DNA of 64,000 bases, taken from Prorocentrum cordatum. Its lineage: Eukaryota; Sar; Dinophyceae; Prorocentrales; Prorocentraceae. This document shows positions 22,608 through 58,665 of the stretch, piece after piece. Both the position numbers and the translations under genes were made by a program. Under the pieces are notes generated by a model. The model was not told where the DNA came from, did not search any database, and saw only the letters and a program-made list of their open reading frames with translations. Position 1 is the stretch's first letter. Each line of letters opens with the position of its first letter. The stretch spans positions 142,001 through 206,000 of the forward strand of contig CAUYUJ010015513.1 in assembly GCA_963575745.1 (NCBI GenBank), given 5' to 3'.

Positions 22608-22621
22608 AGCCGCCCTCTCCA

Positions 22622-23585
22622 GTCCATGCTTGATCGTGAACGCCTCTTATTGCATCGTGTTTTGCGCCTCCCTCCGAATTCATTCGATGGCCCTACGCTT
22701 CACTCATTGTGTGGCTGGGTCCCGGGAGGGCGCCATAAACCGCTTGCGCCCTGGTGCCAGGCTCACCTGTGGCGCACGGGTGGCCTTACGGTGCAAGAAT
22801 GGGGCCCCTGGATCGAACAGTTGCGAACCAGCGCGGAAAATTGCCGTGAAGTTGTCGCGATTATCCGCGGCGAGTGGTCTGGACCATTATGGAAGGAGCC
22901 ACAGGCCATAGTACAGAGGTGGGCCGAAGCATTAGACAGCATACCGTGGCATAAAATGTCACGGTCGCGCCTATGCACGGCAAGTCAGGCAGCGACCCAA
23001 GGATGCGCTGCTGCCGCTGCCGAGCAGCGCCGAGCACGGCCCCAGAGTCTGTACCTCTCCTCCCTCGTCACCTCCCTCTACCCCGACACCATGCCCAGCC
23101 TCTTGCGGAGGCGGTTTGAAAAATGGGTTGGTGAATTAGCTGCGCCAGAGCTCCGTGAGCTCCAGCAGACCTGGCCGGAGCTGAAAGCGATTTTCATGAA
23201 TTCAAGGCCAGCGTGGGTCTGGGCACACATCAAAACCATAGTGGGCGGTTGGACGACCACACACAGAGTCAAGGTCGAGGCGCCTGCCAACTGCCTTTTC
23301 GGATGCCCTCATTGTCGGGATTATTTTCCTCACTACCTCACTTGCCCCCGCCTCCTTGGCTTCATGTCCCTCGTCCGCTCCCCTCTCCCCTCCGACCCCG
23401 TCATCCGCATCGGGCTCGCTCTCCCGTCATTGTATACTTCCCAGTTCGAGCGAGAGAGTGCCCATGCATACACGGTGCTGTCATTTCACTTTTATAACAA
23501 AGTACGGCACGCTGCATCCCCACCCCAATCTCCCTCATCATACGTTCACTTACTGCGCGCAGCTCAAGCTGCCATCAGCATGTAG
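22622..23585 (+). pseudogene. LINE A ORF2, C-terminal module (sense orientation)
   Basis: Open to a TAG at 23,583. Begins within [19 protein letters not shown] and ends with a cysteine/histidine cluster, CLFGCPHCRDYFPHYLTC, matching CTLGCSCSARDCIEHYAMC of LINE B. Such C-terminal zinc knuckles are common in LINE ORF2 proteins. The upstream part of this frame is junction sequence. It lacks any RT or endonuclease domain on its own strand because those lie inverted on its left. Confidence 0.75.
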
Positions 23586-26704: not shown

Positions 26705-27932
26705 ACATCCCACGCTCTTGCAAACATCCCTCCCACCCACCCACCCGCAATTTGGTTTGCAAAACCCACGCGGTGGCGATTGCGATGACTGTTTGACGTT
26801 GGCTGGTCCATCTCTGCGGCCGCGCCAACCCGAGCACGCGCGCGCAGTGGTCAGTTAGTTTGTCGCGACGGACGCGGCCGCGGTGGCGTTGGCAGTTGGG
26901 TACATCCTGGCGGGCACTTCGTTGCGAGTCGGTGATTTGGGCGGGCGCGGTATCATGACAACGTCGAAAGTGGTTGACACGGTGATGGTAGTCGCGATGC
27001 CGGTGACGATGTTGGCAACGACGGCGGCGCGGCCAGTGCGGGCGCCGATGCTGATCACACCGACGGCGATGACGGCGCCCTTGCGCAGGCGATGATGAGT
27101 TCGACATGCGCGCGCGGCCGCCGCGCGAGAGTGGCCCACACGGTAGTATTTGACACGGATCGTGCACCCCCAGCGCGTTCGCAAGGGCGCGCGAATGATG
27201 TCGGCATGCGGCGCGAGAGGCCCGTTCGGCGCAATTCCATTAAAAATGTTTTGCCAAATACAGCAAAAATCCGTTTTCGTCTCAAGAATTCGCAAGTGCG
27301 CGAGCGCGCGCTTTCTTGAAAATTGGCGTTGCGAAACCATGTGTTTTAGCATGTTGTTTTGACACTCGGTTTTGTCATCGCTACGACAACCAAGGTTTTC
27401 AACGGAATCAGGCATGCGCGCGCGACGACGCGCGCGCGTGCATTTCGCTTCTGTTGTCCACAGGGTTTTCGCGACGGCACTCGCGCAAGGGCGCTCGAAC
27501 GATTTCGACATGCGCGCGCGAAGTCCGTGTGGTAGCATGTGGTAAAAATGTTGGAAAATATTGTCTTACGAATTCGCAAGAGCGCGCGCGAGAGCATTTT
27601 TGAAAACCCGCGCTGCGAAACCATTTGTTTTCTGTAAGTCGCTTGGACACTCGGTTTTGAAATCCTCACGAAACCGAAAGTGTTTGAAGGATTTCGGCAC
27701 GCGCGCGTGACGACGCGCGCGCGTGAACTTCGTCATCTCTTTTCCTGTGATGTTGGAAAACTGCTATTTTATGATAAGCGAGTATGCGCGCATGTAATCT
27801 GTCGCAGAGGATGACGGGGGGGGGGCGATGCCGGTCGGGCCGGGGTAATGTGAACGCATGATTAGGATGGACGATGGGGCAGAATCATACGTAAGTTGCA
27901 GCGCCGATAATCCCGGGGGTGGCAGAGTTCGT
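26705..27932. repeat. Complex repeat unit, left part of array 2
   Basis: One full unit with anchor, GC-rich core, two GCGCGCGCGACGACGCGCGC words (about 27,415 and 27,700) and the tail GATGGACGATGGGGCAGAATC. It stops at GGTGGCAGAGTTCGT, where the 15.7 kb element starts. The missing continuation of the unit appears on the far side of that element, at 43,590. Confidence 0.85.
27927..27932. repeat. Candidate target-site duplication, left copy
   Basis: GTTCGT here and GTTCTT at 43,590-43,595 flank the 15.7 kb element directly, matching at 5 of 6. Confidence 0.55.
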
Positions 27933-27967
27933 CCCAGAGGTCTTTTAGATAACGTTTTGTTACCGGG
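27933..27967 (+). repeat. Left terminal inverted repeat
   Basis: Starts CCCAGAGGTCTTTTAGATAACG and ends GTTACCGGG. It pairs with 43,555-43,589 at 25 of 35 positions. The outer 11 nt match at 10 positions and the AGATAACG block is identical. Confidence 0.7.
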
Positions 27968-27977
27968 CTCAACGCAA

Positions 27978-28012
27978 CGTTATCTGATAACGCAAGGCGT
28001 TATCAGATAACG
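27978..28012. repeat. Perfect subterminal palindrome
   Basis: Two perfect 16 nt arms, CGTTATCTGATAACGC and its complement, separated by AAG. Each arm is itself a near-palindrome of GTTATC and GATAAC. Position next to the terminus suggests transposase-binding sites, by analogy with other DNA transposons. Confidence 0.85.
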
Positions 28013-28290
28013 TGTGCCACGTGTTTCTTGTATACCATTAATTTTTCCACCCAAAACATTATCATCACATCACCATCATCATCACATATAATATGTTCAC
28101 GCGTTTATCATTTTATAGCGGCTCTCGCTTGAGACATTCTCTTCATATTATCTTGGAAGCCTGGCGTTGCCTGTCTCGGGCGCCAGTAGTGAGTCGTTGT
28201 GCGAGTGCGAAGCTCGGGTGACTGAGGATTGAGAGCACATCGAAGATACCTAGGAGGATGGCGATGACGAAGAGGGCAAGGATGACGAGG
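28013..28290. other. 5' region of the element before its first gene
   Basis: A/T-richer than the surroundings, with ATCATCACATCACC words. No ORF of note. It probably contains the promoter of the first gene, but no recognisable element can be named. Confidence 0.4.
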
Positions 28291-28292
28291 AG

Positions 28293-28480
28293 GAGGGAGG
28301 AGGAGGAGGAGGAGGAGGAGGAGGAGGAGGAGGAGGAGGAGGAGGAGGAGGAGGAGGAGGGAGGGAGGGAGGGAGGAGGAGGAGGAGGAGGAGGAAGAGG
28401 AGGAGGAGGAGGAGGAGGAGGAGAAGGAGGAGGAGGAGGAGGAGGAGGAGGAGGAGGAGAAGGAGGAGGAGGAGGATGAG
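28293..28480. repeat. (GAG)n tract
   Basis: GAG/GGA triplets just upstream of the first candidate exon of the element. Confidence 0.95.
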
Positions 28481-28657
28481 GAATCAATGACGTTCGTGAG
28501 GGCAGATGGGCGTCAGCTCGACTGTCATCGATCCGTTGTCACTGTGCAGCCGTTCTGGCTTCGGATGAGATCCTCCAGGAAGCTGGAGTTTTCGTTCCGT
28601 CCCAAACAGTTTTGGGACACGCCGCTCGGCCGCCAGCTCGAGCGCAACCGAGCTGTC

Positions 28658-29485
28658 ATGAGCGCTGCGACGGAGGCGGAGCTCCGCCAGCAGCTCGCCG
28701 AGCAGGCCGCCGAGTTGCAGGCCATGCGAGAGCTCTTGAACAGAATCCAGGACACGGTCGATGCACCCGAGCCTCGCGTGGCCGCCGCCGCCGCCGAGGT
28801 GCCCAGTGCTGCTGCTCCCGCGCCCGAGGCTGCGCCTGCCGAGATGCCGCTCGAGGTCGGGCCGCCCGTCGTTGCCTCGCCCACGCCTGTCGAGCGCCCC
28901 AGCGAGCCCGATCGCGGCGAGGTCATCAACATCGGTGATAGCGTCGACAGTGCTGATGATGCGCCGTCCACCGTGCAGGGACACCCTGAGGAGATGCAGA
29001 CGCAGCTGGACGGTGTCTCGCACTTCGAGGACGCTCAACTACCGCTGGGTTCCAGCTTCGTCGACGCCGGCGGCCCTGGTGCAGCCGAGAGCATCGAGCA
29101 GGCCATCCAGCAGAGCCTCGAGCAGGCGCAGAAGGACGGCGTGGACCCATCACTGGTGCCTGACTTCGCGACGGACGCGAGCCACACGGCGAGGTCTGCG
29201 AGCTGGCGTGCTGATGACATCGAGGGCGGCGGCACCAGAGGCGATGGCAGCGCCAGGTCGCGCAGCGGGAGCACGCGCGGGGCGGCGTCGGCACCTCGGG
29301 CGGCCAGCAGGAGGCAGAGATCGTCGGACATCGACTCCGACGACGCCCCGCTGTCGATCAAGTCCGAGCGCCCGCCCACGGCGCCGAGGCGCAGGAGTCG
29401 CAGCAGGAGCCGCACCTGCGACGCACACGCGTCGCTCGGCGACCTGACGGAGCAGGACCGCACCGAGGGGAAACCAATAGGATGA
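28658..29485 (+). CDS. Gene 1 of the element, first exon: coiled-coil and UIM-like protein
   Basis: An open frame whose best internal start is the ATG at 28,658 (MSAATEAELRQQ). Residues 4-35 form a probable coiled coil (heptad-like AELRQQLAEQAAELQAMREL). An Ala/Pro/Glu-rich linker follows. The stretch ESIEQAIQQSLEQAQ fits the ubiquitin-interacting-motif pattern (hydrophobic-x-x-Ala-x-x-x-Ser). The C-terminal part is rich in Arg-Ser with RRRSRSRSR, suggesting nuclear location. Codon use is GC3-rich and unlike the neighbouring microsatellites. The frame ends at a TGA near 29,483, but a donor shortly before it is likely. I do not recognise the family. Confidence 0.5.
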   Translation: MSAATEAELRQQLAEQAAELQAMRELLNRIQDTVDAPEPRVAAAAAEVPSAAAPAPEAAPAEMPLEVGPPVVASPTPVERPSEPDRGEVINIGDSVDSADDAPSTVQGHPEEMQTQLDGVSHFEDAQLPLGSSFVDAGGPGAAESIEQAIQQSLEQAQKDGVDPSLVPDFATDASHTARSASWRADDIEGGGTRGDGSARSRSGSTRGAASAPRAASRRQRSSDIDSDDAPLSIKSERPPTAPRRRSRSRSRTCDAHASLGDLTEQDRTEGKPIG

Positions 29486-29654
29486 GGATCCAGGAGTAAA
29501 CGAATGAGCAGGACGAGGGAGGATATAGGTTTCATGCAGCAATCTCACTGTTGTGGAAGCGTTCTAGGCGAACGCGCGTACTCGATATACAACACAATGT
29601 ATATCGGGTCAGGGACTCGGTGAGTCCAATGAGTTTGAGGCTTGGGTGAGGGTG

Positions 29655-29729
29655 ATGTTGATGATGATGATGACGATGACGGTGGTGCTGATGATGCTGC
29701 TGATGATGATGATGATGCTGGTTATGGTG

Positions 29730-29761
<32 letters not shown>

Positions 29762-29793
29762 GATGATGATGATGCTGATGCTGATGCTGATGC

Positions 29794-29826
<33 letters not shown>

Positions 29827-29830
29827 CACA
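29655..29830. repeat. (GAT)n/(ATG)n trinucleotide tract
   Basis: GATGATGATG with GCT variants. All frames are open; poly-Asp, poly-Met and poly-His products are artefacts. Confidence 0.95.
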
Positions 29831-29899
29831 CTGTGTACATGCATATTGATTTGATTAGTTCGGTGAGTCTGAGGCTCGGATGAGGGTGATGATGATGAC

Positions 29900-29985
29900 G
29901 ATGAGGAGGAGGAGGAGGAGGAGGAGAAGGGAGAAGACGAGGAATGTATGAGGAGGAGGAGGAGGAGGAGGAGGAGGAGGAGAAC
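29900..29985. repeat. Two short (GAG)n tracts
   Basis: GGAGGAGGAG runs separated by GGGAGAAGACGAGGAATGTATG. Confidence 0.9.
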
Positions 29986-30141
29986 GGTGGAGGAAATGTG
30001 AACAGTAGTGGCTTGGAAGAGGTGAGGGGTCTAGGTATGGTACCAATCCCTCATGGAGATGACTGGGGGTCCGAGGGTATGCAGTATACAGAGGATGGAT
30101 ATGGATGTGATCGGAGGAATGACACTGTAACGTGAATAATT

Positions 30142-30193
30142 CGCAACCTCCATCGCAAACTCCATCGCGATGGAGATTGCGATGGAGGTTGCG
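30142..30193. repeat. Hairpin H1 (TCCATCGCGATGGA family)
   Basis: A 52 nt palindrome centred on TCGCGA with a single mismatched pair. Arms contain CGCAACC, TCCATCGC and CTCCATCG in order. It lies in non-coding sequence between candidate exons of gene 1. Confidence 0.9.
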
Positions 30194-30408
30194 TTTCGGG
30201 TATCATCTGCGTTTCCGTGCACGTGCTCTGGGTGGCCGGATTGCCCCGGTGGGTTGTGTTTATCTAGAAACCCACGCAAGAACACTAATATTGGCTGATG
30301 TCGGACTCGTCCGATTGGTACCATACCCAATGTCTCCTCACCCCCCCACCCCCACCCCTGATCGCGCCCCCCACCCCCTCTCCTCCCACCGCCCCTGCTG
30401 CGCCCAGG

Positions 30409-30498
30409 AGCTGCAGACGCCCAAGAAGGTCACGCGCAAGACCGCGTGTGAGGTGGCGATGGGCAAATTCGACAACATCGAGGCCACCGCTCTAGCTC
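30409..30498 (+). CDS. Gene 1, possible second exon
   Basis: After a CGCCCAG acceptor, about 30 codons read ELQTPKKVTRKTACEVAMGK then FDNIEATALA, with the GC3-rich codon use of the other exons. The flanking sequence on both sides is Pro/His/Ser-rich and looks intronic. Linkage to the exon at 28,658 is inferred from strand and order only. Confidence 0.3.
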
Positions 30499-30908
30499 TC
30501 TTTCCTCATCCGCCTCTGGCTCCTCCCTCTCCTCCTGGTCACCATCGCCCTTCACGCCATTCAAACGTTCCGTCATCGTCGGTTCTTATCCACTACCGCC
30601 TTATCATCATGATCATCGTATACTCTCCCCTCGAGCATCATCATCCCCTTCTCCTCGTGACAATATCCCCTCTCGTCCTCCACCTCCCCATCGCCCTCCA
30701 CCTCATCCAGCAGCATCCTGCTCCATATCTATAGATGCCCCTTCATCTTCGCAACCTTGCTCGTCATGGTCGTTGCTGTCACTGGCCACCGCCGCTCGCA
30801 TCGCAACAGTCGCCGCTCGTGCTCCCGGATGCGTCGCCATGATAACCACCTCGTCATTCATATCGCCATCGAGGCTCGAGACAGCGGGCATCGCTCGAGT
30901 CAGAGGCG

Positions 30909-31172
30909 GTGCGGATGAGCGACGACGACGGGAGTGAGATCGACAGATCAGCGCTGAAAGCTGTCTGGTCTAAGTATATAGTCGGCCCAGATTTTCTGCA
31001 ATATACCTCGGCAGTAGCAAAGCAGGCCAAGTTGGACAGAGATCTCCTTTTAAAGTACAAAAAGCTATTGAAGGACACTCGCCAAGTTTCAGAGCACGTC
31101 CCTGTTCCTGTTGCCAAGGACACCTGGGCCGATCAAAACCGAACCATTAGTTTTAATAGTTATACTAGCTAG
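30909..31172 (+). CDS. Hypothetical exon in the element
   Basis: Encodes SDDDGSEIDRSALKAVWSKY, then AKQAKLDRDLLLKYKK and LLKDTRQ. Downstream, at about 31,180-31,360, a second frame shows FVNMLRDTRQ, a partial echo of LLKDTRQ that hints at an internal duplication. Charged and helix-prone. Family not recognised; exon ends unresolved. Confidence 0.3.
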   Translation: MRMSDDDGSEIDRSALKAVWSKYIVGPDFLQYTSAVAKQAKLDRDLLLKYKKLLKDTRQVSEHVPVPVAKDTWADQNRTISFNSYTS

Positions 31173-31737
31173 TGGGCCTCTAATACAGGAGATCCTGCTG
31201 TCCGTGGCCAAAGATAAGGAATCGACGTGGCACTTATCGACATCAGCAGACAACTGGGCCACGGACACGAGCAAGCAATTCGTCAACATGTTGAGGGACA
31301 CCCGCCAATCTATCTCCAAGTGTCGGGACCCCAAACTGACCACCACAAACACTTGTAGTTGAAAAAATCGTGACCGTGGCCCCTTAAATTAAACAATGCG
31401 TCGCAGGCAAGCTGTGTGGGCTGAGTGCTTCAAGAAATCCGAGGACGAGGATGACCGAGAATCTGAGGCCGAGGATGAGGACGATTTGGGTTGGTCGAAA
31501 CCACTTCGCACCTCACCTTCCCGAGCCTCCTCCTCCTCCTCTTCCTCCTCCTCCTCCTCATTACCATCCTCCTCCTACCAGCTCACCATCTTCGCCCCCC
31601 TCGTACCCTCCCCCTTGAGCGTCAAGTGCAATTCCATCCTCGTCAGGATCATCCTAACATCCTCCTCGCCCACCCTCTTCATCCTCCTCGCTCCAACATC
31701 CCCAGTCTTGCCGTTTTGGCGATCGCGCGTGCAGGAC

Positions 31738-31910
31738 ATGACTGCCGCAGCCGATACGGCCAAGCGGCCCGCGGCTGCAGCATCCGGCGCCCGCGCCAGC
31801 CCCAGCCACAAGAAGCTCATCGCGCTGGCCGTGGAGACGCTCGACGGCTGGAGCTTGGGTTATCAGCAGGAGCTGCAGGCGACATTGATGCAGCAATATC
31901 CCCGCTTGAA
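31738..31910 (+). CDS. Gene 2 of the element, first exon
   Basis: ATG at 31,738 gives MTAAADTAKRPAAAASGARA followed by HKKLIALAVETLDGWSLGYQ. Lys/Arg-Pro-Ala-rich N termini of this type are frequent in predicted dinoflagellate nuclear proteins. The 3' boundary is uncertain (31,900-31,925). The next exon needs one base from here to stay in frame. Upstream, an in-frame ATG at 31,396 opens an acidic Ser-rich stretch through a TCC tract, which I think less likely to be coding. Confidence 0.4.
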
Positions 31911-32050
31911 TATCAAGCATAGTGGATGGCACGGACGGGGTGGCAGCACACTGTCGCCCTGACCTTGTCACCCAACGGGTACGGATGTTGACCCGAGGCC
32001 ATCGCCAGATCCAACGCGATCGACGTGGTGGTAGCCCGTGAACGGGCTGT

Positions 32051-32088
32051 TCCATCGCGATCTCCATCGCGATGGACTTCGCGATGGA
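32051..32088. repeat. Hairpin H2 (TCCATCGCGATGGA family)
   Basis: A 38 nt near-palindrome, TCCATCGCGATC then TCCATCGCGATGGA and its outward complement, with two mismatched pairs. Lies in the presumed intron between the exons of gene 2. Confidence 0.9.
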
Positions 32089-32173
32089 CTCGGGTCGACA
32101 TCCATCTCAAATAAACGAACGCCGTGCGAGTATCAACTGAACAGATGATATTCACAGCGGTCGTGACTTCAAG

Positions 32174-33081
32174 ATGTGGATGTTGTTGCATCGGCCCCTC
32201 AGTCAGCGTGGCGCGTCAAGACAGACGACGCGGGCGCCTTGCCGCAGTACGCCAGAGTCGCTCGGGTCGAGGGCGAGGAGACCCTCGTCGCGAAGTGGGC
32301 CGACGACGACTTCGAGTGGAAGATCCCAGGCACGACGGCAGGCGCGGCGCCGCAGGACAAGGACACGCAGACGCTGTGGTCTGGACGCGACATGGACGAG
32401 GACAAGGTCACGGTGATCGTCGTCAACCACAAGACCAGAGGCGTGTGGCTTGCGATCAGGAAGGGGTCGAGGACGCAGGTGGTGCAGATGCAGGGGTTCA
32501 ACCCGAACAGCATGGGCGACGCCAAGAAGAAGATGATGGAGTGGGCCCAGTCGTTCTGCTCTGCCAAGATGGACAAGCCAGCGATTGAGGCCGCGAAGGC
32601 GGAGTGGCTCAAGGTGAACCGTCCAGACGGCTGGGCCCCGAAGGGCAAGGGCAAGGGCAAGGGCAAGGCAAAGTCGAAGGGCAAGGCCAAGTGCAAGGCA
32701 GTGCCGAAGGTCAAGCACGAGGCTGACAAAGCTGAACACGACGCAGGTGAAGGTGCTGAGAGTGAGAACCATTCCGAGACATCGGAAAAGGAGAGCGACG
32801 CTGGCGATGATGATGAGGATCGCGGTGACGGAGCTGCTGAGGGTGGTGGGCCAGATGAGGCAGACGAGAAGCAGGATGACAACACCGCCGACGGTCATGT
32901 GGTGAGGAAAAGGCCATCCGCAGCGGCGCCTGTCGCCAGCCCGTCGAAGAAGCCCGCTGCTGCCATCGAGACCACGCCGCCGACTGCGGCGGCAGCATCC
33001 GCGGTGGCGCCAGCCGCTCCCAGCCCAGGTCCGATGGCGCTCAAGCCACCGCCACTGCCCGACGACATGTTCATTGACTAA
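32174..33081 (+). CDS. Gene 2 of the element, main exon
   Basis: Follows a GACTTCAAG acceptor and is open for about 300 codons to TAA at 33,079. The N-terminal ~150 residues look globular: LPQYARVARVEGEETLVAKW, KVTVIVVNHKTRGVWLAIRK and MMEWAQSF. Then comes a Lys-Gly run (KGKGKGKGKAKSKGKAK), an acidic stretch (SEKESDAGDDDEDRGDG), and a KRPSAAA / PSKKPAAA tail. The charge pattern suggests a nucleic-acid-associated nuclear protein, but this is inference. No enzyme motif seen. Confidence 0.55.
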
Positions 33082-33404
33082 GGGGCACATGTGTTGTCAA
33101 AAAAAAGTGCGCCATCAGTCATATCATCGCTTCGGCTGCTGCTGAACGTCTTACAGTCAGAAGTTGCTTGACCGCAGTCAGATGTGGATGCGTGCATCGT
33201 GGGCCTCTCGGGCCTGAGGGTGATCATATGTGCCTGGGTTTGTGGGTGCCCGTCCACGGCATAGCTGCGGGTTGCAGAAGTATTGCGGTTCCCTGTCGTT
33301 ACTTTCGTTGTGTGATTGCGTTGCGTTCTGCATTGGACTTGTGATCTGAAGGTGCAGCGACACCATGTGTGCATTGCATTGCGTTCATCGTTCCACGGAG
33401 CACC

Positions 33405-33525
33405 GAGATCGAGATCGAAATCGAATTTCAACATCGAAGCTTCGAAACTTAACACTACGATACGAAGCTCAAACCTTCGAAAGCAACACCGAAACTTCGA
33501 AGTCGAACTCGAACTTCGGACCTGG
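33405..33525. repeat. TTCGAA-rich short repeats
   Basis: CTTCGAA, TTCGAAG and ATCGAAATCGAA words recur every 10-20 nt between gene 2 and gene 3 of the element. Several are self-complementary. Confidence 0.7.
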
Positions 33526-33640
33526 TTAAGGTGTGGCCGTCGATGCATGTCGTTCAGCATGGCAGATCGTCCTTTCATATCGTGGACCTGGCACTTCCTG
33601 GAGTCTCGCACATCCCCCCTCGCCCAGCGCCTGTCAGGCG

Positions 33641-34183
33641 ATGATCCGCATGTCGCAGAGCGGGCAGCCCGACGAGCTGGAGGTGGCCAAGCAGTTCATT
33701 GACGCATACAAGTCGCAGAACTTGAAGGTGATTCGGTCGCTGAAGGGCCAGTCGGACGATACGAACTCACAGTTGGCTGGTGACGTCGACGCCGAGGGGA
33801 AGCTCGTGAACCCGTCCAGGTGGGGCTTGTTGACCGACGGCGACGCCAGCAACCACCAGCCATGCGGAGCCGAGCCGCCGAAGAAGCGAGGCAGGGGCAA
33901 GCCATCGATGGAGGATGAGGAGAAGTTCTGGGAGGAGGTCAAGCAGGCAGACTTCCAGGTGCCAACAGATGGCAGGCTCGGTCGAATCGCAAGCCGTTGG
34001 AACCGCGCCATCAAAGACCCAGAGCTGAAGAAGAAGTACGACTCGACTACACAAGCGGTCGGGCAGAGCATGGACGAGGCCAAGCGCCAGTTCCGCGTGG
34101 ACTGGGCCAAGGACGAGTATAAGGCGTTCTTGAAGGAGAAGAGCATCACCACCACGAGCTCGCGCAGCACCTTCACCAACATG
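33641..34183 (+). CDS. Gene 3 of the element, exon 1
   Basis: First of three exons that join in frame into a ~468-residue protein. ATG at 33,641; a second one at 33,650 is also possible. Encodes MIRMSQSGQPDELEVAKQF, then FIDAYKSQNLKVIRSLKGQ, a basic KKRGRGKPS patch, and a helical stretch, FWEEVKQADFQVP to YKAFLKEKS. The Trp/Lys-rich segment GRIASRWNRAIKDPELKKKY is loosely like a small DNA-binding helix bundle but not assignable. The donor is GTGTAC at 34,184. Confidence 0.6.
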
Positions 34184-34343
34184 GTGTACCTCCCTCTTGG
34201 GCGTATAGCTCATAAAGAGGGAGGAGGCCGCTTGGGGTGGATCCAGGCGGGCTCGCACTCCCCCATCCTCCTTAACCCACCGTCTCTCCATATAACCATC
34301 ACTGCTGATGTCGCGCTCGCCATTGCCCACTTCATCTGGCGAG

Positions 34344-34501
34344 GCGGTGAAATACGTGTCCAAGGCCCTCGTCATGGGGGCGCCGTGGGTCCTCTGGGAT
34401 GAGATGACGGAATCGGTCCGAGTGCTGTACGTGACGAAGGGGATCAACCAAGTGTTCACGGTGGCGTGGCAGCAGCATGAGAAGTGGACCAACGAGGAGA
34501 C
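34344..34501 (+). CDS. Gene 3 of the element, exon 2
   Basis: Encodes AVKYVSKALVMGAPWVLWDE, then TESVRVLYVTKGINQVF and WQQHEKWTNEET. It joins exon 1 in phase 0 across a 160 nt intron. It joins exon 3 in phase 2 using a GC donor (GCAAGG at 34,502), which removes the in-frame TAA that would otherwise follow. Confidence 0.55.
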
Positions 34502-34772
34502 GCAAGGATAACACTAGTTCGGTAAGAGATGTATCCAGAGGCGGACGATGAGGAGGACACGGACGATGAGGAGGTGGAGGAGGAATAATGAGGAGGAGGA
34601 TGATGAGGATATGAGGAGGAGCACGAGGAGGAGAAGGAGGGACATGCGGAGGAAGCGACGAGGGAAGACGTGGACTACGAGGAGGAGGAGGAGGAGGAGG
34701 AGGAGGAGGAGGAGGAGGTACGACACGGTTGGGAGTGCAATGTTGTGAGACCACTCGATCTCAGGATCCCAG

Positions 34773-35478
34773 GGCGCTGGGCAACGGCGTGCGGCTGACC
34801 TCAGAGGAGAATGCTGGATCCACAGGTGCGGGATCTACAGGTGCGGGATCTACAGGCGCTGGATCAACAGGCGCTGGATCTACAAGTGCGGGATCTACAG
34901 GTGCGGGATCTACAGGTGCGGGATCTACAGGTGCAGGATCATCTACAGGTGCGGGATCATCTACAGGTGCGGGATCTACTGGCGCTGGATCTGCAGGTGA
35001 TGGTGCAATCGCCACTGCCAAGCAGAAGGCGAGGGCCAAGGGCAAGACCAGAGCATCGTCGGCTGGTGGTGGAAGCGGCGGTGATGGTGGAGATCATGTG
35101 CAACCCACTGACAGGGTGAAGGAGCTGGAGGGCGAAGCGAAGAAGGTCTTGCTCAGGTACGGTGTTGCGTCTGGCACTGCCTACAACATCATGATGAACG
35201 TGGAGAGGCATCCTGAATGGGCGTGGGGCAAGAACGACACTGATGTGAACGCGCTCAAGGCAGCGACTGGGGAGCTCGCGGACACGGTGATCCAGAACTC
35301 GCTCTTGAGCAAAGCCATGACGTCCAAGTTCAGCGGGCTGAAAGCAGTGTTCGGTGACAACTACTTGGTGGGCCTCCAGTCCTTGAAAGAGCTTGGCCCC
35401 AAGCTGGACAACATCGTGAAGCTCACGGAGACTATCGTCGGGGTGCACAAGCTGAAGACGAGCGACTCGCTGTCCTGA
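34773..35478 (+). CDS. Gene 3 of the element, exon 3
   Basis: Starts after ATCCCAG and ends with TGA at 35,476. Encodes ALGNGVRLTSEEN, about twelve GSTGA pentapeptides (34,813-35,003), a basic KQKARAKGKTRASS patch, and a ~120-residue helical C-terminal domain (TDRVKELEGEAKKVLLRYG to VGVHKLKTSDSLS) with a well-mixed composition. Function unknown; the fused protein has a globular N-terminal half, a flexible repeat linker and a helical C-terminal domain. Confidence 0.55.
34813..35003. repeat. 15 bp minisatellite in gene 3 (GGTGCGGGATCTACA)
   Basis: About 12 tandem 15 bp units with two 3 bp expansions (ATCATCTACA). In-frame length keeps the reading frame open and yields a Gly-Ser-Thr-Gly-Ala linker. 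Confidence 0.9.
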
Positions 35479-35678
35479 ATCACTCTCGCGATGCACGGCA
35501 TCGTCTGGCATCGCGGTGGGGTTCCGCGAGCTGGTGCGCCCCGCGCAGGTGCGTTCGACACCGAGGGGCGCCAGGTGCACCTGCAGCCAGGCGCTCCTGG
35601 GGATTCAGGCGCGCAGTCTATGATGAAAATCTGACTGAGCAGCAAGTTTGTGATCACATTGAGCATTTTTGAAACTGG

Positions 35679-35868
35679 AGACCCGGTAACCCAATCATTT
35701 CATGGTTTCAGAGGGCCGGTTTAGCGATGGAATCCATCGCGATGGAATTTAGCGATGGAGCCATCAAACCATATATATATACGAAAATTAGCGATGGAGT
35801 GGACTCCATCGCAAACTCCATCGCGATGGAGTTTGCGATGGAATCAGGGGCCCGGTAACACCCGGTAA
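35679..35868. repeat. GGTAAC-flanked hairpin cluster, including H3
   Basis: Bounded by ACCCGGTAACCC at the left and GGCCCGGTAACACCCGGTAAC at the right. Inside are several GCGATGGA words and a perfect 38 nt palindrome at 35,805-35,842 (TCCATCGC-AAAC-TCCATCGCGATGGA and complement). The CCGGTAAC words resemble the GTTACCGG near both ends of the 15.7 kb element. Confidence 0.8.
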
Positions 35869-37075
35869 CTTTTGAAGATGTTGGACAGTTTCGGTCAGAT
35901 TTTCATGTCGGTGTTGTTTAATTTCCCGACTGGGGAGGCACGCCGTGCAGACAGTCACGTCTGAGATGGCGCGTGCCAGCGATTTGAGGTGGGGCCTCGA
36001 TCACATGTCTGAAACACGGTGCGAAATCTCATGCACTATAGTGTACTGGAGGCTATTCGAAGCCAACAAAGTTCGGTAATCTCGAGCTGGATCGCTCGCG
36101 GGTGCAGCAATGCGTTAGTTTACTAGGTGCTTGCCCGCGGCACCAATGGCCACGGCTCGGTTCGTGATGCATTGGCGTCGCAACCCCTTCCCCTCAACAG
36201 TTCCGATATTTCAGATATATGGGCCCACTGTTCCAGAAGGGTATACCTCCTCTCCTCGACTGCGCGCCGTGGCCAAGTCTAGCGGGCACATCTGACCAGC
36301 TGTGTTTCAACGCAAGCTGGTGGCAGCGCCAGTGGTCAAGCATGGCGTGAGTGGAGTGATTTCGTGATATTGCTGCACGTGCGTCTTTTGATGCAAAACA
36401 CAACACCACCCGTAGCATGGCACGGGATCGGACTGAGTCTCGTTGTTCAGGATCTCCTCGTCGCATCAGATGGGCGCAACCGAATGCTGGAATAGAAGAG
36501 GGTGGCCGTAACCGTGTAATCATAGCATGCCATGCACCGCACGGCACAATCAAACTAACAAAAAACGCACTCGGCACCATCAACATACACCTCATCCACC
36601 TCCAAATCCTCCACCTCCATCTCAGCCACTCACATCTCCTCATCTCCTGATGTGCCTCCTCCACTAGAGTAAAATCACCACCCCGCCCCATCCACCACTC
36701 GCCCCACGCTCACCGCACTACATGCCCTGGCAGCGGAGGGGGGGGGTCACGATGTTCGAGAGATATCACTTGACCAGTGACGGGGGCAACGGCTTAGAAC
36801 CTAAGCGTGGTCCGATCGAATGTTGACCGACGAACGCAAACGGGGGCGATGAGGAGAGCGACGATGAACAACAATGATCATGACTCAACCAACGGCACAC
36901 AACAACAAAAAAAACACGGAATGGACATGCAATAACAACACATGTAAACATAGAGTTGGGGATGGCGATGATGGGTAATCGAATGTAGATACAGGAGATG
37001 ATATGATGCATGCGTGCGTGAGTGTGTTTTGTGCATAGCTATTTTTCTCAAACGGGTCAATGCAAGCACGGGGCC
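35869..37075. other. Intergenic region upstream of the transposase-like gene
   Basis: No convincing exon. A/T-richer than the window average, with CACCTCCA words near 36,590. Presumably holds the 3' end of gene 3 and the promoter of the next gene, but nothing specific can be named. Confidence 0.4.
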
Positions 37076-38680
37076 ATGCCCCCCGACCGAACCAGATCAC
37101 CACCACTCGACCGCAGGCGATGGGTCCCAACCAGCAGCTCACAGCGCGAGGCGGGGGCCAAACTGTTCGAACACATGATTTCCCTATATGCTCGCTGTAA
37201 ATTATCAGCCAAGGACTTCAGCACAGCGATGTGGTACCTTGGTGAGGCGTCAACGCCTGGCGCTGATTTCAAGCTTTACGGTTTGCACCCCGACAGCCAG
37301 ACTGGAAAATTCCAAGATCACTTGGACAGGGTGTTACCATCACCACAGCACTTATACATGTTGGCAGTCCCAGGCAATGAACATGGGAAGGCGATCAGAC
37401 ACGTGACACATCATGCTATGAAGTGTGTGTGGGAGTCACTGGAGGAAGAACTCACACAGCGGCAGTTCGACGATAACAACGCCATGCGGATCATGCAGCA
37501 ACATCCAGCCGAGAGGGGTGAAACGATATTAGACACCACCGCGTACAAACATCATCCAGTCACAGTGCGGTGTCGGGAAGCACATCTGCATCCTCCAGTA
37601 CCCCTGGCTCTCTACTTAGACGGTGTGACCTATCAAAAAGGTGCGTCTGGTCGTAACGACACAGCTGTCGGGTACTGGTGCGTCAACCTTCTCACGCGGC
37701 GGAGGCACTACATAGGATCGCTGCGCTCATCAGACGCATGCCAGTGCGGTTGTCGGGGATGGTGCTCCACCTTCCCGATGCTTGAATTTTGCAGGTGGCA
37801 ATTCGAAGCTATGTCAAACGGTCGGCGCCCAACCATGCGTCATGACGGCAGCCCATGGCCAATCAATGACCCATTGGGATCGGGCGCCGAGCTGTCATAT
37901 ACAGCGTGTCTCCTTTGGGTCAAGGGTGATTGGAGCGAGCACGCCCACTCACTCGGACTTCAGAGTTGGGCGTCGAAGTTCAGCCCGTGTCAGTTCTGTT
38001 CGCTGACCAAAGAAGAACTTCACTCTTTAGACGAGCACCTCGGCGATGTCGAAGGACCGCCGTGGCCGCTGCGGAACCACAATGACTACTTCAGGGATTG
38101 TGAGCAGTGCGAAGTGAAATTAACATTGCAAACTCCAGCACATCGCGCCGCGCTCATGGAACACATGTCGTGGATTCGGGCCACCAAGAAATCCATGGGC
38201 GGCCGCGTGATCAGGCGTGATGTTACTATCAATGGAACTGTTTTACTCGACGGCGACAGACTGGAACCCAGTAGGGAGCTTCTCGACACAGGCATGCTCG
38301 AACGAGTGGCTCTGCCGATTGCAATTGTCTTTTGGCGTGCACGACGGAGCGGGCAGTCTGTCATAGATTCAGTGAATCACCGATGTCCGATTTTTGCGCC
38401 CGAGCTCGGGACGAGCCCACACGCTAGTCTAGCAATCGATTCATTGCATTGCGTCTTTCTGGGGCCAGTGATGCGGTTCACATCATCCGCCTTGTGGCGC
38501 CTCGTGTTGCATAATCCTTGGGGGTGCACTGGCGACTCAGATACTGTGCTCAGCATCGGTGTCAGTTTGCTGACGGCCGAGCTCGAAAAATGGCAAGTCG
38601 ATGCAGGCATTCGGCATCGGGATCGCATCAAGTCCTTGACGCTGAAGATGCTCGGCAAACGGCGGGGATATTCCCTCCAG
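37076..38680 (+). CDS. Transposase-like protein (dinoflagellate DDE-type family), exon 1
   Basis: ATG at 37,076; 535 codons, the first of three exons giving a ~706-residue protein. Motifs: ALYLDGVTYQKG with Asp182; SSDACQCGCRGWC, a cysteine cluster at 222-230; WVKGDWSEHAHSLG; SPCQFCS and CEQCEVK, a second cysteine pair set; and SLAIDSLHCVFLGP with Asp455 and His458. DG near the start and D-x-L-H-x-x-x-LG further on parallel the catalytic regions of CACTA/Plavaka-like DDE transposases. The CxCxC cluster recalls the KDZ group. I recognise the overall family from dinoflagellate gene models, but its transposase identity is inference. The donor is GA (CTCCAG|GACGC). Confidence 0.65.
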
Positions 38681-39035
38681 GACGCATTTTTTGCTTGCGT
38701 TCATATGCTAGCAAATAGTGCGGTGATGAGTGTAGTGAAGATTGGGGGTAATGAGGATGAGGATGGGCGTGGAGTGCGAGGCTGAATGATAGGGTGGTTG
38801 GAAGGTAAGCCACGAGGGAGGGATAGCCCGACAAGATAAGGAGGGAAGGAGGAGGAACCATGGTAAAGCACGCGCGTTCGCTTGGGACATCCTCACAATC
38901 TGGTTCGCGCTTGTGTAGGTGTGGGGACCCCACTCGTATCGAAGCACAATGTTTTCTGATGTTGGATGGTGTGGGTTTTGGCGGTGCACGCGTTCTAACG
39001 TGGGCATGCTTGAGAGTATAATACTCGCTCTTCAG
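38681..39035 (+). other. Intron 1 of the transposase-like gene (GA-AG)
   Basis: 355 nt. Excision joins SLQ to EKNHPGGHLSCKAAEAN in phase 0. Both borders read CAG|GA, so the exact cut is ambiguous by a base or two. Without this intron the frame runs on into EDGRGVRG and a stop. Confidence 0.6.
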
Positions 39036-39334
39036 GAAAAGAATCACCCTGGGGGACACCTATCCTGTAAAGCAGCAGAGGCGAATATCCTCATGCGGTT
39101 CGCACTAGACAGGCTCGAGGCGCACGGGGGGGGGCGCGTGTTTGGAAGCGCTCTGGTTGGAGCAGGGCAATCACTGGTCGAGCTCGTAGATATGATCAAG
39201 CAAAACAAACATCAACCACCACTACCTGTATTCCAGTCAATGCTCCGTGCTATGGACATGCACATCAAGTTTGCCAAACATGCGAAGGTAGGGATGACGC
39301 CAAAACACCACTTGATGTGCCACATGCTCGCCAG
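39036..39334 (+). CDS. Transposase-like protein, exon 2
   Basis: Encodes HLSCKAAEANILMRFALDRL, then GQSLVELVDMIKQNK and AKVGMTPKHHLMCHMLAR. The Glu in KAAEAN, or an acidic residue of the next exon, is the best candidate for a third catalytic residue, judged only from position. The MTPKHH-M-HM stretch is conserved in the family as I remember it. Ends CGCCAG before a GA donor. Confidence 0.6.
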
Positions 39335-39677
39335 GACTGTTGCGGTTGAGACGGGGGTGATGCAACATTGTTGTGTTTGTCGTGGGGACCTCTTGTCATT
39401 CAAGGTTGGATCTACTCGAGATTCTGAGATCACTGCGGCATTATCGTGCAGTCGGGCGCCACCATGGAAGGTGGCATGTATTGTTCACCGATAGTCATTC
39501 GTCCTTATGTGTAATGTTTACTGTTTATCCTGGTCGCTTCAACCTAATTCACGAACCCCCTAACCCTCGTTTCCCTCACCACCCCCTACCACCAACAACT
39601 GCCCCACACCCCGTTCTAGTTTCTAGTTTGGAATGCTGCATCGCCCCTGGCTTTGGGCTGTGTTGGGAAAACTCCAG
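39335..39677 (+). other. Intron 2 of the transposase-like gene (GA-AG)
   Basis: 343 nt. CCAGGA occurs at both borders; splicing joins HMLAR to IPTHGGPKQY in frame. The repeated CCAGG at both ends resembles the direct repeats described for introner-type introns in dinoflagellates. Confidence 0.6.
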
Positions 39678-39894
39678 GATTCCGACACATGGTGGACCTA
39701 AGCAATACGATTGCTTCTTAGACGAAACGTTAAATATTATGTTACGCGATGTTGCACAGTTCAGCCATCGGCTCACTTTTTCGCGAAGGTCGCATCAGTC
39801 GATCGAATTGCAGGGGTTCCTTGCAGGGCCACACTCTAAATACTTGGCATCGTCAGCGGGATGGTCTCGTCTTTCTTCTCGACAGCGGTCGTGA
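39678..39894 (+). CDS. Transposase-like protein, exon 3
   Basis: Encodes IPTHGGPKQYDCFLDETLN and FSHRLTFSRRSHQS, ending at TGA 39,892. The P-x-Y-x-x-FLDE-LN pattern is the expected C-terminal signature of the family. It overlaps the ATG proposed for the next gene by 34 nt. An alternative reading is that this exon splices onward (a CAG|GG at about 39,812) and the two proteins form one fusion. Confidence 0.55.
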
Positions 39895-40405
39895 TGTTTG
39901 CTCTGTTGCCTGTGGCGCTTGGTATCCCAGCCGGCGTTGATGGTGGTGATGTGAACACGGCTGCGTTCCTCTGGGCTACCTCCAAGGCTGTAACGTTGAA
40001 CGAGCTTCCAGGTGATGATTTCCTTGACATGCCAAACATGTTCTTGCGCAAAGCCATCGGGCACATAGTTGAGGAGCTCCCAAATATCCCCCGCACCACT
40101 GCTCTATTCGAAGTGTTTGCAGGCAAAGCCTCAATCGCACGTGCAATGAGAGTACGCGGGTTTTCTGCATATTATTTTGAGCGCGACAAGCATCCTTGGC
40201 ACGATGCGTGTACGTTTGTGGGAATATTATACTGCCTCTGGATGACAGCATCTGTGGTGGAAACTGGGCTGGTGTGGTTCAGTCCCCAATGCAGCACCTG
40301 GGGCCAGATGTGCAACCACCACACGCAGAGGTCGACTGGCATGCCGCTCGGGGACCCTGATCGTCGTTTGGACGTCCGCGAGGCGAACTTCATTTCTCAG
40401 CTCCT
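39861..40405 (+). CDS. Cytosine-C5 methyltransferase-like protein, exon 1
   Basis: ATG at 39,861 begins a hydrophobic stretch (FFSTAVVMFALLPVALG) which may instead be intron. The domain proper starts around codon 75: TALFEVFAGKASIARAMRVR matches motif I of C5 methyltransferases (F-AG-G, SAM binding). FERDKHPWHDA follows in the motif II position, and VWFSPQCSTWGQMC sits where the PC catalytic loop (motif IV) is expected, with PQC instead of PPC. The family is abundant in dinoflagellate gene sets. It could act on cytosine or be a diverged, inactive relative. The donor is GTGACC at 40,406. Confidence 0.5.
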
Positions 40406-40750
40406 GTGACCAGGGATGGAACTAAGTGTGGCACCAGTGTTCGCTCAGGTGGGGCAGTTGATTTCGTCGTCACGCTGGACTCGCCTCGATCGCGTGCCAA
40501 TGCATGCGAAACGAAAGTTTCACAATCAACACGATTGCTTCCAGGTCCGAGATGGTTGCGGTTGTGGCCGAATCGGTTGACCCCCCCCCATATCCCAGGG
40601 AGTTCCCACGGTCGAAGCATGGTTGACGCGTTTGGTTTGTGCAATTATCCAATGCACCATTCGGCCAGCAACTGCAGCGTGAACCGTTCTCGGTGATGCC
40701 CCCCCCCCACTTGAACGTATTGTATGGGATTGTGTTGCGCCCGCGATGTG

Positions 40751-40809
40751 CTCCATCGCAAACTCCATCGCGATGGACTTTGCGATGGAGGTCGCAATGG
40801 AGGTTGCGC
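40751..40809. repeat. Hairpin H4 (TCCATCGCGATGGA family)
   Basis: CTCCATCGCAAA then CTCCATCGCGATGGA and its outward complement, followed by an extra GTCGCAATGGAGGTTGCG. Lies in the intron of the methyltransferase-like gene. Confidence 0.9.
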
Positions 40810-40874
40810 TGGAGCTCTTCGCGGGCTGACAAATCCCATGACGTAGTGTTCTAGACTGTTCTGTCGCTCCAGAG

Positions 40875-41334
40875 GTCGTATATGTTATTTCTTGCAGATG
40901 TTCGCCACGTTCGGTTTGTGGTGGAGCAGCCGATCAACAGTTTACTGTATCACGTTCAGCACGTGAAAGACGCTATGTACATCACAGGCGCAACCAGGAT
41001 GATTACACACCTCGGGGCGTTCGGTGGCCGCACGGCGAAACCATTGGAGGTGTGGACGACCTTGGGTTTTTCTGATATTATCAGGCTGTCAAAGTCCAGG
41101 CGCGAGGCTCAGGTCATGCTCGGTGGTGCGAAGCTCTATGCTGCCAAGGTCTCCAAAAAAATCTCATCAGATCGGCCGCGGGCAAAAGGATGGTGTAAGG
41201 ACACGTGGATATCAAAAAATGGCACTGCGATGAAGTCGACGCAGGAATACCCAAATGCTTTCAGTGAACTTGTGGCGTCGATCGCCCTAGACAATTTGAA
41301 TGGTGTTGCAGTTATTGCATCTTCGTCGCCATAG
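40875..41334 (+). CDS. Cytosine-C5 methyltransferase-like protein, exon 2
   Basis: Joins exon 1 in phase 2 (CT|G) across a 469 nt GT-AG intron, to give a ~334-residue protein ending at TAG 41,332. Encodes VRHVRFVVEQPINSLLYHVQ, where VEQP occupies the place of the ENV motif (VI) of C5 methyltransferases, then ITHLGAFGGRTAKPLEVWTT. The downstream target-recognition domain is short, and motifs IX and X are not obvious. Confidence 0.5.
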
Positions 41335-42285
41335 GCGCGCCGTGTGATGCACGCTGTTTGGGCGTGCGCGGGTCAGCCGCACGCTGTATCGCAGCAACTA
41401 CATTTGTTTGAGTGCAAGCACTGTGAACAATCACGTGAGTTCCGTGGCACATACAGTTTGTAAGTTTCAGATTGTTTAGTCGCGGGTTCTATCGCGATGG
41501 GCCCAACGATGGAACGCGTGGCGCGCCCAGCCGCGGCGCCTGGGCGCCCGTGACAACTCGCCACGTCATTCCATCGCAATGTCCATCATGATGGTATTCG
41601 GATTTAAGCAATCTGGCGGTTAGATGACCATCCAGACATTTAGGCGCCATGCAACAGCAACATTATCATTGGAGGACGTCTCAGGCGAACCGCCAGAGCT
41701 ATATCATAAACTGTGTAGTGCGGAAACAAACCGAAAATATCCACGACGACCGATCGCGGCGGAGGGGGCCGAACGGAATACGAGTGAGGATACACCATGC
41801 CAACAACTACATACTCACCCCACCAAGCGCTCTCAAACTTCTGGTTTTCAACGGTCCATCTGTTCGCCCTGTTAGCGTGACAACGGTCCCGTCAGCATCA
41901 TCTATCCGAATTGCGGGGGGGGGGTTCGCCATGTCGCGCACAATTGCGCTTAAACTTAAAAATCGGCCTCGTTTGGCCCAACACGTTATTTAAGACCTTG
42001 AAACCGATGACGAAAGAGGTGGACAGTTGCAACCATACCGTCAACATAGTTTCGTGAAGCCGACCCCTCGTCTGAATCATCATTCGATTATTCATCATTC
42101 ATCTCCCCCATATCGCCCCATCGCTATTATCACCTACATCCTCCTCTTCATCACCAGCATCTGCCCTCCTCGTCCTCCTGCTCATCGTTCCCTGCCTAGT
42201 CAACCTCTTCCCGCTCACATCCTCCTCCTCGTGCTCCTTCCTTCCCACCCTCGCCTCCCCCCATCATCCCTCGCCACTTCTTCCT
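41335..42285. other. 3' region of the element
   Basis: No recognised gene. Contains two weak members of the hairpin family: CTATCGCGATGGGCCC near 41,489, and TTCCATCGCAATGTCCATCATGATGG near 41,569. Confidence 0.45.
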
Positions 42286-42289
42286 CGTG

Positions 42290-42420
42290 CATTCCTCCTC
42301 CTCCTCCTCCTCCTCCTCCTCCTCCTCCTCCTCATCCTCCTGCTCCTCCCCCTCCTCCTCCTCCCCCTCCCCCTCCTCCTCCTCTTCCTCCTCCTCCTCC
42401 TCCTCCTCCTCCTCCTCAGC
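42290..42420. repeat. (CTC)n tract
   Basis: CTC triplets; further shorter CTC/TCC tracts follow at 42,570-42,610 and 42,715-42,745, with GAG tracts at 43,030-43,060 and 43,215-43,275. Confidence 0.95.
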
Positions 42421-42477
42421 ATCCGCCTCATCATCGTTACTTGCTCCATCGTCCTTTTCATGCCTCGTTCCCCCTAC

Positions 42478-43235
42478 CTGCACGTGACGTTCGCCCACTA
42501 CGCGAACTTCGAATCCCGTGGCGCGTTCGGCGCGGGCGCGCCCGCGGTAAACCGTGCCTCATCATATTTCCCCTCCTCCTCCTCCTCCTCCTCCTCCTCT
42601 TCCTCCTTATCCTCCTCTTCCTCCTCATCCCCCTCCTCCTTCACCTCGCCTTCCTCCTCATCGTCCTCATCCTCCACTCTCTCATCGTCCTCATCCTCGT
42701 CATCTTCCTCATCCTCATCCTCCTCCTCCTCCTCCTCCTCCGCCTCCTCGAGGCTCCTCCTCCTCACCTTCGCCCTCCTCATTTTCCCCATCGTCGTCAT
42801 CATTATAATATCCCTCTTCATCTTCCTCACCCTCCTCATCATCCGCATGCGCTCTCTCCCCCATCCTCCTCCCCATCGTCATCGTCTGCGTCATCATCCT
42901 TATCCCCGTCGTGCCTCAGCCGCGCGGTGACAGGAGACGGGCGGGCTCGGACTCGGGAGGTTTGGGGGCGGGGTCCCAAAGCAACGCGAGGGTCATATCC
43001 CGAGGAGTGCACGCGTGGAGCCAACTGCGCGGAGGAGGAGGAGGAGGTGGAGGAGGATCCTCCTCCTCCTCATCCCCCTCCCTCCTCCGTGTCCGGAACT
43101 CCTTATGGGGCCACGGAACGCGTCTGGCAGCGGGTCGGGCGGGCGGGGCGGCTCTTCGCGCTCACCACGAACGGCGCCACCTGGCGCAGGCTGGGGGGGG
43201 TACAACAGGAGAACGGAGGAGGAGGAGGAGGAGGG
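42478..43235 (+). other. Exon-like islands between microsatellites (uncertain)
   Basis: Three short stretches have mixed, protein-like composition between CTC/GAG tracts: VTFAHYANFESRGAFGAG (about 42,483-42,550), TREVWGRGPKATRGSYPEEC (about 42,950-43,015) and YGATERVWQRVGRAGRLF (about 43,100-43,160). They are not in one frame. They may be small exons or pseudo-exons of a last gene in the element. Confidence 0.2.
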
Positions 43236-43554
43236 GGAGGAGGAGGAGGAGGAGGAGGAGGAAGAGGGCGAGGAGGAGGAAAATGGTGTGAGCGCCTCCC
43301 AGAGCCCAAGCATACCCGATTCATGTTGCTTCGACCCTCCTCCCATATATCATCTTTCCCATTTGGTTCAATATTATGCGTATGATGCTCATATATGTTC
43401 AATAAGAGTTTGCTTTCCCAGTTCAAACTTCGGCAAATATTGCTAACATGCGGAAGCTAAACTGAAACAGCACGAACTCCACACTCGAATCGAAAACGCA
43501 AATTTTGCTGCATAGTGAGGTTACCGGAGAAATGGTCGGATAACCCCAAAATCA

Positions 43555-43589
43555 CCGGATAACTTTTCGTTATCTGTTAGACCCCTGGG
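43555..43589 (-). repeat. Right terminal inverted repeat
   Basis: The complement reads CCCAGGGGTCTAACAGATAA and continues CGAAAAGTTATCCGG. The adjoining interior has two more GGATAAC words and a GTTACCGG, mirroring the subterminal words at the left end. Confidence 0.7.
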
Positions 43590-43595
43590 GTTCTT
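43590..43595. repeat. Candidate target-site duplication, right copy
   Basis: GTTCTT, against GTTCGT at 27,927-27,932. Confidence 0.55.
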
Positions 43596-55929: not shown

Positions 55930-56050
55930 GGTGACTTCTCTGGGTGTTCCTGGAACGCCCAGGCTTTTTTCTCTAGTAAATTGTGCCAGCAGCGTCGCAG
56001 GCATAAGTTTGTGGAGTTTTTGACGCAAAAAGTCGGGGCTGCAAGAGGTG
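55930..56050 (+). pseudogene. LINE B ORF2, N-terminal endonuclease fragment
   Basis: In one frame GCSWNAQAFF then RRRHKFVEFLTQK matches the first strand and helix of an EEP endonuclease. The following GLQEVHG, with the catalytic Glu, lies in the next frame, so a frameshift falls near 56,030. Upstream sequence is Ser/Pro-rich and the start codon is not clear. Confidence 0.6.
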
Positions 56051-58320: not shown

Positions 58321-58665
58321 CAGGCCTCGTATTTGGGATTCAAGATCGGCCCTGCCCGGTGTGCGGCCGAATGGGCCCACGCAGTGTCCAAGTATTCCAA
58401 CCGTGTTCGTCTGTGGTCCGGGCTCGGGCTCGGGTTGCAATTGAATGCCAGAGTTTATAACATTTTTGCTGCGCCGGTATTGTCACATCTTTGGCAACTT
58501 TGCGATCCGCCCCCGGAGGTTGCAGCTGCAGAGGCCACTGCACTCACGCAGCTCTCTTCTGGACCGGACGGGTGGCGTACAGCAGCCGATTTGTTTAATC
58601 TGCAATCGCTGATTTCGTTTCCCGTCGGCTTCCGCTGCCTCTCGGACTGCGCATGGGCCGCCACG
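58297..58665 (+). pseudogene. LINE B ORF2, thumb and connection, shifted frame
   Basis: GGAEFVLQASYLGFKIGPA, then ARVYNIFAAPVLSHLWQLC, then TALTQLSSGPDGWRTAADLF. The last two segments correspond, respectively, to the two sides of the inversion junction in LINE A, which supports the reading that LINE A is a rearranged copy of a similar element. Confidence 0.7.

Follow-up and report, generated by a model that had tools for sequence, protein, structure and literature searches.

Transposases of the CMCT clade (CACTA/EnSpm, Mirage, Chapaev, Transib), which includes RAG1, are characterized by C(2)C and H(3-4)H motifs between the second catalytic D and the E, by target-site duplications of 2-5 bp and, "in most cases", by 5'-CA..TG-3' termini (PMC12730594). 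Giant DNA transposons with methyltransferase genes (PMC12477816) or TET/JBP genes (PMC12730594) are already known. Here, we describe a giant element in a 64,000-nucleotide stretch of the dinoflagellate Prorocentrum cordatum (contig CAUYUJ010015513.1 of assembly GCA_963575745.1; the whole stretch is hereafter called the window), and we regard it as a new lineage and a new gene arrangement among such transposons. It is very probably a full-length, recently active cut-and-paste DNA transposon that encodes a CMCT-type transposase together with a coupled methyltransferase-like partner and moves as proposed below.

The cited papers were available to us in part, and the comparisons refer to those parts. 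EnSpm/CACTA elements have CAC..GTG termini and a 3-bp duplication, Plavaka elements have TGT..ACA (Plavaka A) or CATCA..TGATG (Plavaka B) termini, and KDZ elements (Zisupton, Kyakuja) make duplications of 7-8 bp (PMC12730594), whereas the window element has CCCAG..CTGGG termini and a 2-bp duplication. It resembles the CMCT clade in the C(2)C and H(3-4)H of its D-D-E transposase, in its short duplication and apparently in fold (the predicted one ranks RAG1/Transib first), but differs in its termini, in having its own transposase family without a Pfam match and in the overlapping methyltransferase-like gene (PMC12730594). The fungal TET/JBP transposons (KDZ, Plavaka, EnSpm and others) likewise carry an accessory gene whose product is an enzyme with an actual or apparent action on DNA bases; there the gene encodes a dioxygenase, whereas here it is methyltransferase-like and adjoins the transposase gene across families (PMC12730594). 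Sola1-1 of Ectocarpus (21.5 kb) is another giant DNA transposon of an alga and also has a DNA methyltransferase domain, but it is a Sola-1 element in which that gene lies on the opposite strand and combines a ParB-like domain with one of the N4-cytosine or N6-adenine type (PMC12477816). Among dinoflagellates, SymbioLINE-Dnmt and SymbioDIRS-Dnmt3 of Symbiodinium are mobile elements carrying a cytosine methyltransferase gene; these are retrotransposons with a reverse transcriptase and recognised DNMTs, in contrast to a DDE transposon with a far more divergent protein (PMC5890265). In Amoebidium, the giant Plavaka repeats are likewise very large, reaching 50 kb, and have a CMCT-type transposase, but they contain tandem gene clusters and many tyrosine recombinases, and no such methyltransferase-like partner is noted in the available part of their description (PMC11244446). 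A literature search based on titles and the beginnings of abstracts, with most subscription papers and bioRxiv outside its coverage, returned no paper that we recognised as describing this lineage.

The element was initially noticed by a sequence-only reading as a giant DNA transposon inserted into a repeat array. To follow it in the genome, we searched a 4.13-Gb assembly of 21,875 contigs (the window lies within contig C14664) with a 97-base query from the left end. Eight places were found including the window's own, and the other seven were fetched. At all eight left-end matches similarity begins at or beside CCCAG while the flanks differ, and the ends at 27933 and 43589 are exact, since other genome copies begin and stop at identical bases within different flanks. 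Three copies (C13432, C14529 and C4214; 15.5-15.7 kb) are end-to-end relatives of the window element with 97.4-98.3% DNA identity. Three others (C20058, C16378 and C14844; 15.2-15.4 kb) form a sister subfamily that matches the window element mainly in coding blocks, mostly at 67-77% DNA identity (about 73% in transposase exon 1), and the last one (C13223) is a rearranged and decayed copy lacking both the transposase and the partner gene. The coding blocks that the window element has in common with the sister subfamily lie on the plus strand, in line with the initial description of the genes. Given the multiple copies, the common exact termini, the 2-bp duplications and a DDE-type transposase, the insertion is a mobile giant DNA transposon placed into a repeat array, as had been suggested.

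The termini are CCCAG..CTGGG in the eight compared copies, except for a left CCCGG in the decayed C13223. A 2-bp duplication is exact in six of the eight, with GT in the window and AA, TA, CT, CC and TT elsewhere; the chance of at least six exact dinucleotides among eight is 1.5e-6 (1/16 each). A 5-of-6 flanking hexamer had been read earlier as a possible duplication. The match (GTTCGT/GTTCTT) is present, but the eight-copy comparison fits 2 bp and the longer match is best taken as chance. Recomputation of the inverted ends returned the values reported initially, 10 of the outer 11 nucleotides and 25 of 35 overall; 26 of 35 match in the sister copy C16378, and 23 of 200,000 random 35-mer pairs from the window reached 25. 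The subterminal GATAAC/GTTATC words seen at both ends were also found to be concentrated there: 8/12 of the element's words lie within 100 bp of an end, compared with 7/11 in C4214 and 8/11 in C16378, and base composition predicts 0.07 per 200 nt versus the eight near the window ends. In the three sister copies, the left end region is 80-83% identical and then gives way to a stretch with no match, and the right end region is about 80.5% identical. Genome-wide, CCCAGAGGTCTNNNNGATAACG with up to two mismatches occurs 351 times versus 93 for the reversed control. Nine of its 10 exact matches are at the ends of known copies and the tenth is on C15622, where it follows the partner gene of another, decayed copy at a distance of 2.9 kb. 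The excess stems in part from another repeat, CCCAGAGGCCTCGGCGATAATG and similar words; this word is frequent in the genome (e.g., G000:C4345:30420-30441) and probably belongs to another repeat family with a similar end or core.

The predicted transposase has three exons and 706 amino acids, with a ratio of nonsynonymous to synonymous substitution rates (dN/dS) of roughly 0.08. Its motif order, D-D-C(2)C-H(3)H-E, is that of the CMCT clade. Among the covered rows of 73 homologues, C(2)C is present in 73/73, the two H positions in 39/40 and 38/41, and the final E in 27/32. When the fold predicted for exon 1 was compared with known structures, those of RAG1, RAG-like proteins and Transib ranked first; the fold searches listed no structure from EnSpm or Plavaka, and we know of no solved one for either group. 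The PDB sequence search returned nothing credible, and prokaryote contigs searched with the transposase gave pattern matches, none of which was confirmed as a relative. The transposase is related to RAG1/Transib by its motifs and, apparently, by its fold. RAG1 is the enzyme behind antibody genes. The earlier suggestion of a dinoflagellate-specific type is not established by the homologues, which comprise jgi, ena, lgn and ncbi records and one eukprot record labelled Pyramimonas. Of the eukprot proteins labelled Pyramimonas sp. AAC.1, P0076 is identical to the C16378 copy and P0081 is 99% identical to the window copy, and mislabelling or contamination seems likelier than transfer.

The partner gene, predicted from two exons, encodes 334 amino acids. 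The motif order E-x-F-x-G, acidic residue, P-Q/E-C-S-T and EQP is kept across 30 loci (26 different sequences for exon 1 and 25 for exon 2) with few exceptions, such as L045, where EQP lacks its glutamate. We take these motifs to correspond to motifs I, II, IV (catalytic Cys) and VI of C5 methyltransferases, which suggests that the partner is cytosine-C5-methyltransferase-like and may have this activity. Two protein searches found five and nine relatives, each spanning at most the exon-1 part. In the own-genome search with exon 1, 150 of 1,787 candidates were scored and 150/150 match, three with an internal stop, so the copy number is at least 150.

The partner is a long-term coupled gene of the transposase, mostly overlapping it, across deep divergence. 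Transposase exon 3 lies upstream on the same strand in 29 of 30 fetched partner loci (the exception is L031). Over ten family representatives, with the decayed L030 and L031 left out, partner and exon 3 distances correlate (r 0.74), a value reached in 0 of 5000 permutations. In 23/29 loci the partner is read in the -1 frame of the transposase, the others being the decayed L030 and L035-L039, and 22/29 have an open-frame partner ATG at 31, 34 or 37 nt ahead of the transposase stop; L034 has its ATG at -34 but contains an internal stop. Counted by family representatives, 9/10 have the ATG in the -1 frame and 31-37 nt ahead of that stop. At L056 (G000:C11024:175400-177700, minus strand), from one further family, the transposase C-terminal motif and the partner share one open frame, an apparent in-frame fusion, and P0082 has a transposase-like DESLN motif followed by the partner start within one protein. 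Inspection of the window copy's overlap by eye found no slippery site for -1 frameshifting.

A more distant family (L050-L052), found with the partner protein alone, has a partner 37% identical to that of the window. In two of its copies (C2681 and C13271), similarity at the right end stops at ...GGACCCTCTGGGT, whose last T is possibly part of the duplication or chance. The right end thus read has the CCCAGAGG terminus in common with the window element, and the 4.5 kb read contain neither GATAAC nor GTTATC. Therefore, this terminus is common to the two while the subterminal words differ.

It is most likely that the transposase binds the subterminal GATAAC words. The observed ends and duplication suggest that it would cut at the CCCAG/CTGGG termini and insert by a 2-bp staggered cut. 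Expression of the pair may be coupled by re-initiation after the transposase stop, by -1 frameshifting or by a spliced leader just upstream. The likeliest role of the partner would be to mark transposon or target DNA, which might alter excision, target choice or host silencing.

Several observations weigh against a transposon of this kind with a methyltransferase-like partner. At the duplication site, C14529 (GG/GA) and C13223 (CG/CA) have only one base in common. The flanks form part of an array whose units have diverged (65-80% identity in most cases, 90% in one pair) and are spaced by roughly 0.9-1.3 kb as read off the BLAST comparison. Once rejoined, the flanks can be aligned with the junctions between other units, if only loosely where the two sides meet. 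The initial statement that they rejoin into an ordinary unit stands for the overall alignment; for the last 32 bp of the left flank and the first 36 bp of the right flank BLAST found no homology, and the junction itself is too diverged to align firmly. The partner has no Pfam match above cutoff and no NCBIfam match, its best PDB sequence match (E 1.9) is an unrelated protein, and the structure model of its exon 1 is too poor, with mostly ion-channel receptors, taken as meaningless, among the best-ranked matches. Moreover, it begins with ~35 residues that are hydrophobic and resemble a signal peptide in 11 of 12 examined cases (in overlap families among L023-L052, absent from the L035 family); such a leader would be superfluous in an ordinary nuclear enzyme. 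These features of the partner would fit another S-adenosylmethionine-fold enzyme, an inactive accessory or a protein targeted to the endoplasmic reticulum or plastid, its FxG/PQC/EQP pattern being a chance likeness. On the other hand, the motif order persists, with few exceptions, in families whose proteins are 36-44% identical to that of the window and fits the C5 methyltransferase motifs as we take them to be, and the partner has a rough dN/dS of 0.124; we consider such a different protein a serious possibility, though a minority one.

It is somewhat unlikely that the element simply belongs to an established CMCT family (EnSpm/CACTA or Plavaka) from which its sequence has diverged. The C(2)C and H(3)H motifs lying after the second D and before the E, the first rank of RAG1/Transib by fold and the 2-bp duplication would agree with this, and duplications of 2 bp in Plavaka A and of 2 or 3 bp in Plavaka B are reported in the available part of PMC12730594. 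However, the CCCAG..CTGGG termini are those of neither family, and none of 45 transposases scanned matches a Pfam transposase family at E up to 1, although a distant kinship may well escape such a scan. With regard to the CMCT clade as a whole, the 2-bp duplication, exact in 6/8 copies, lies within its range, whereas the termini depart from 5'-CA..TG-3', a further unfavourable point that lowers the case for membership without excluding it. An integrated DNA virus or Polinton-like element, to which a size of 15-16 kb, inverted ends and several genes might point, is very improbable considering the CMCT-motif transposase, the 2-bp duplication and the lack of a viral hallmark family among the open reading frames scanned (not all short ones were covered); viral contigs searched with both gene products gave pattern matches, none confirmed as a relative. 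The probability that the element is a stable part of the array, between whose units it sits, is close to nil: the seven other copies of its ends have other flanks, some outside any such array, the other array units within the window lack the element, and the fused flanks fit a unit junction.

Table 1. Features of the giant element and its flanks (positions in the window)
Feature	Position	Strand	Remarks
Whole element	27933..43589	+	15,657 bp, 5'-CCCAG...CTGGG-3'; termini same in three end-to-end copies
Target-site duplication GT, left	27931..27932	.	Comparison of 8 copies
Target-site duplication GT, right	43590..43591	.	Comparison of 8 copies
Left terminal/subterminal region	27933..28013	+	CCCAGAGGTCT and five GATAAC/GTTATC words
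Right terminal/subterminal region	43518..43589	-	CCCAGGGGTCT on minus strand and three GATAAC/GTTATC words
Transposase exon 1 (predicted)	37076..38680	+	Start, first catalytic D, Cys cluster, second D, C(2)C; boundary from sister-subfamily comparison
Transposase exon 2 (predicted)	39036..39334	+	PKHHLMCH, H(3)H motif
Transposase exon 3 (predicted)	39678..39894	+	FLDETLN, last catalytic E; TGA stop 39892-39894
Methyltransferase-like gene exon 1 (predicted)	39861..40405	+	ATG 31 nt before transposase stop; 34-nt overlap counting stop; -1 frame
Methyltransferase-like gene exon 2 (predicted)	40875..41334	+	EQP motif, KPxE block; stop at exon end
Upstream gene(s)	28580..35466	+	Coding blocks conserved between subfamilies; no assigned function
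Upstream conserved coding blocks (1)	28580-29221, 30870-31121, 31186-31326, 31705-31878	+	
Upstream conserved coding blocks (2)	32167-32634, 33635-34249, 34335-34505, 35104-35466	+	
LINE-like long open frame, Exo_endo_phos (endonuclease/exonuclease/phosphatase domain)	20325-22646	-	Pfam
LINE-like long open frame, RVT_1 (reverse transcriptase domain)	56024-58441	+	Pfam

The region upstream of the transposase contains at least eight coding blocks with protein conservation between the subfamilies (Table 1) and a pooled dN/dS of 0.33 over the seven tested. The block at 33596-34213 has one stop in its alignment to each of three sister copies, which may lie outside the true exon. No Pfam family above cutoff was found among the upstream open reading frames scanned, a scan that did not include 30870-31121, 31186-31326 and 34335-34505. 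Noncoding blocks rich in CGATGGA and its reverse complement (35706-35851, 40737-40812 and 41508-41600), some partly conserved in the sister subfamily, are possibly introner-like. In the Pfam scan of 20 open reading frames of the window, the only matches above cutoff were in the flanks, which also contain a TAGCA tandem array of 589 bp (10073-10661).

Dinoflagellates have huge genomes whose mobile DNA is poorly catalogued. For an element whose partner gene has at least 150 related loci in a single genome, the present analysis supplies two subfamilies as well as exact ends, a target-site duplication and gene models. The sequence-only reading knew of no element described with such a gene set, and our literature search agrees, although methyltransferase-bearing giant algal transposons have been described (PMC12477816, in its available part). 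We tentatively suggest, as a possibility we would not yet favour, that the element represents a new major lineage of giant transposons with CCCAGAGG termini, in which a RAG1/Transib-like transposase is expressed in fixed coupling with a DNA-modifying enzyme whose base mark would be read by the transposase or the host, so that mobility would be tied to the state of the DNA. One can now test directly whether, in a genome where unusual base modification is abundant, a transposon carries its own DNA-marking enzyme.

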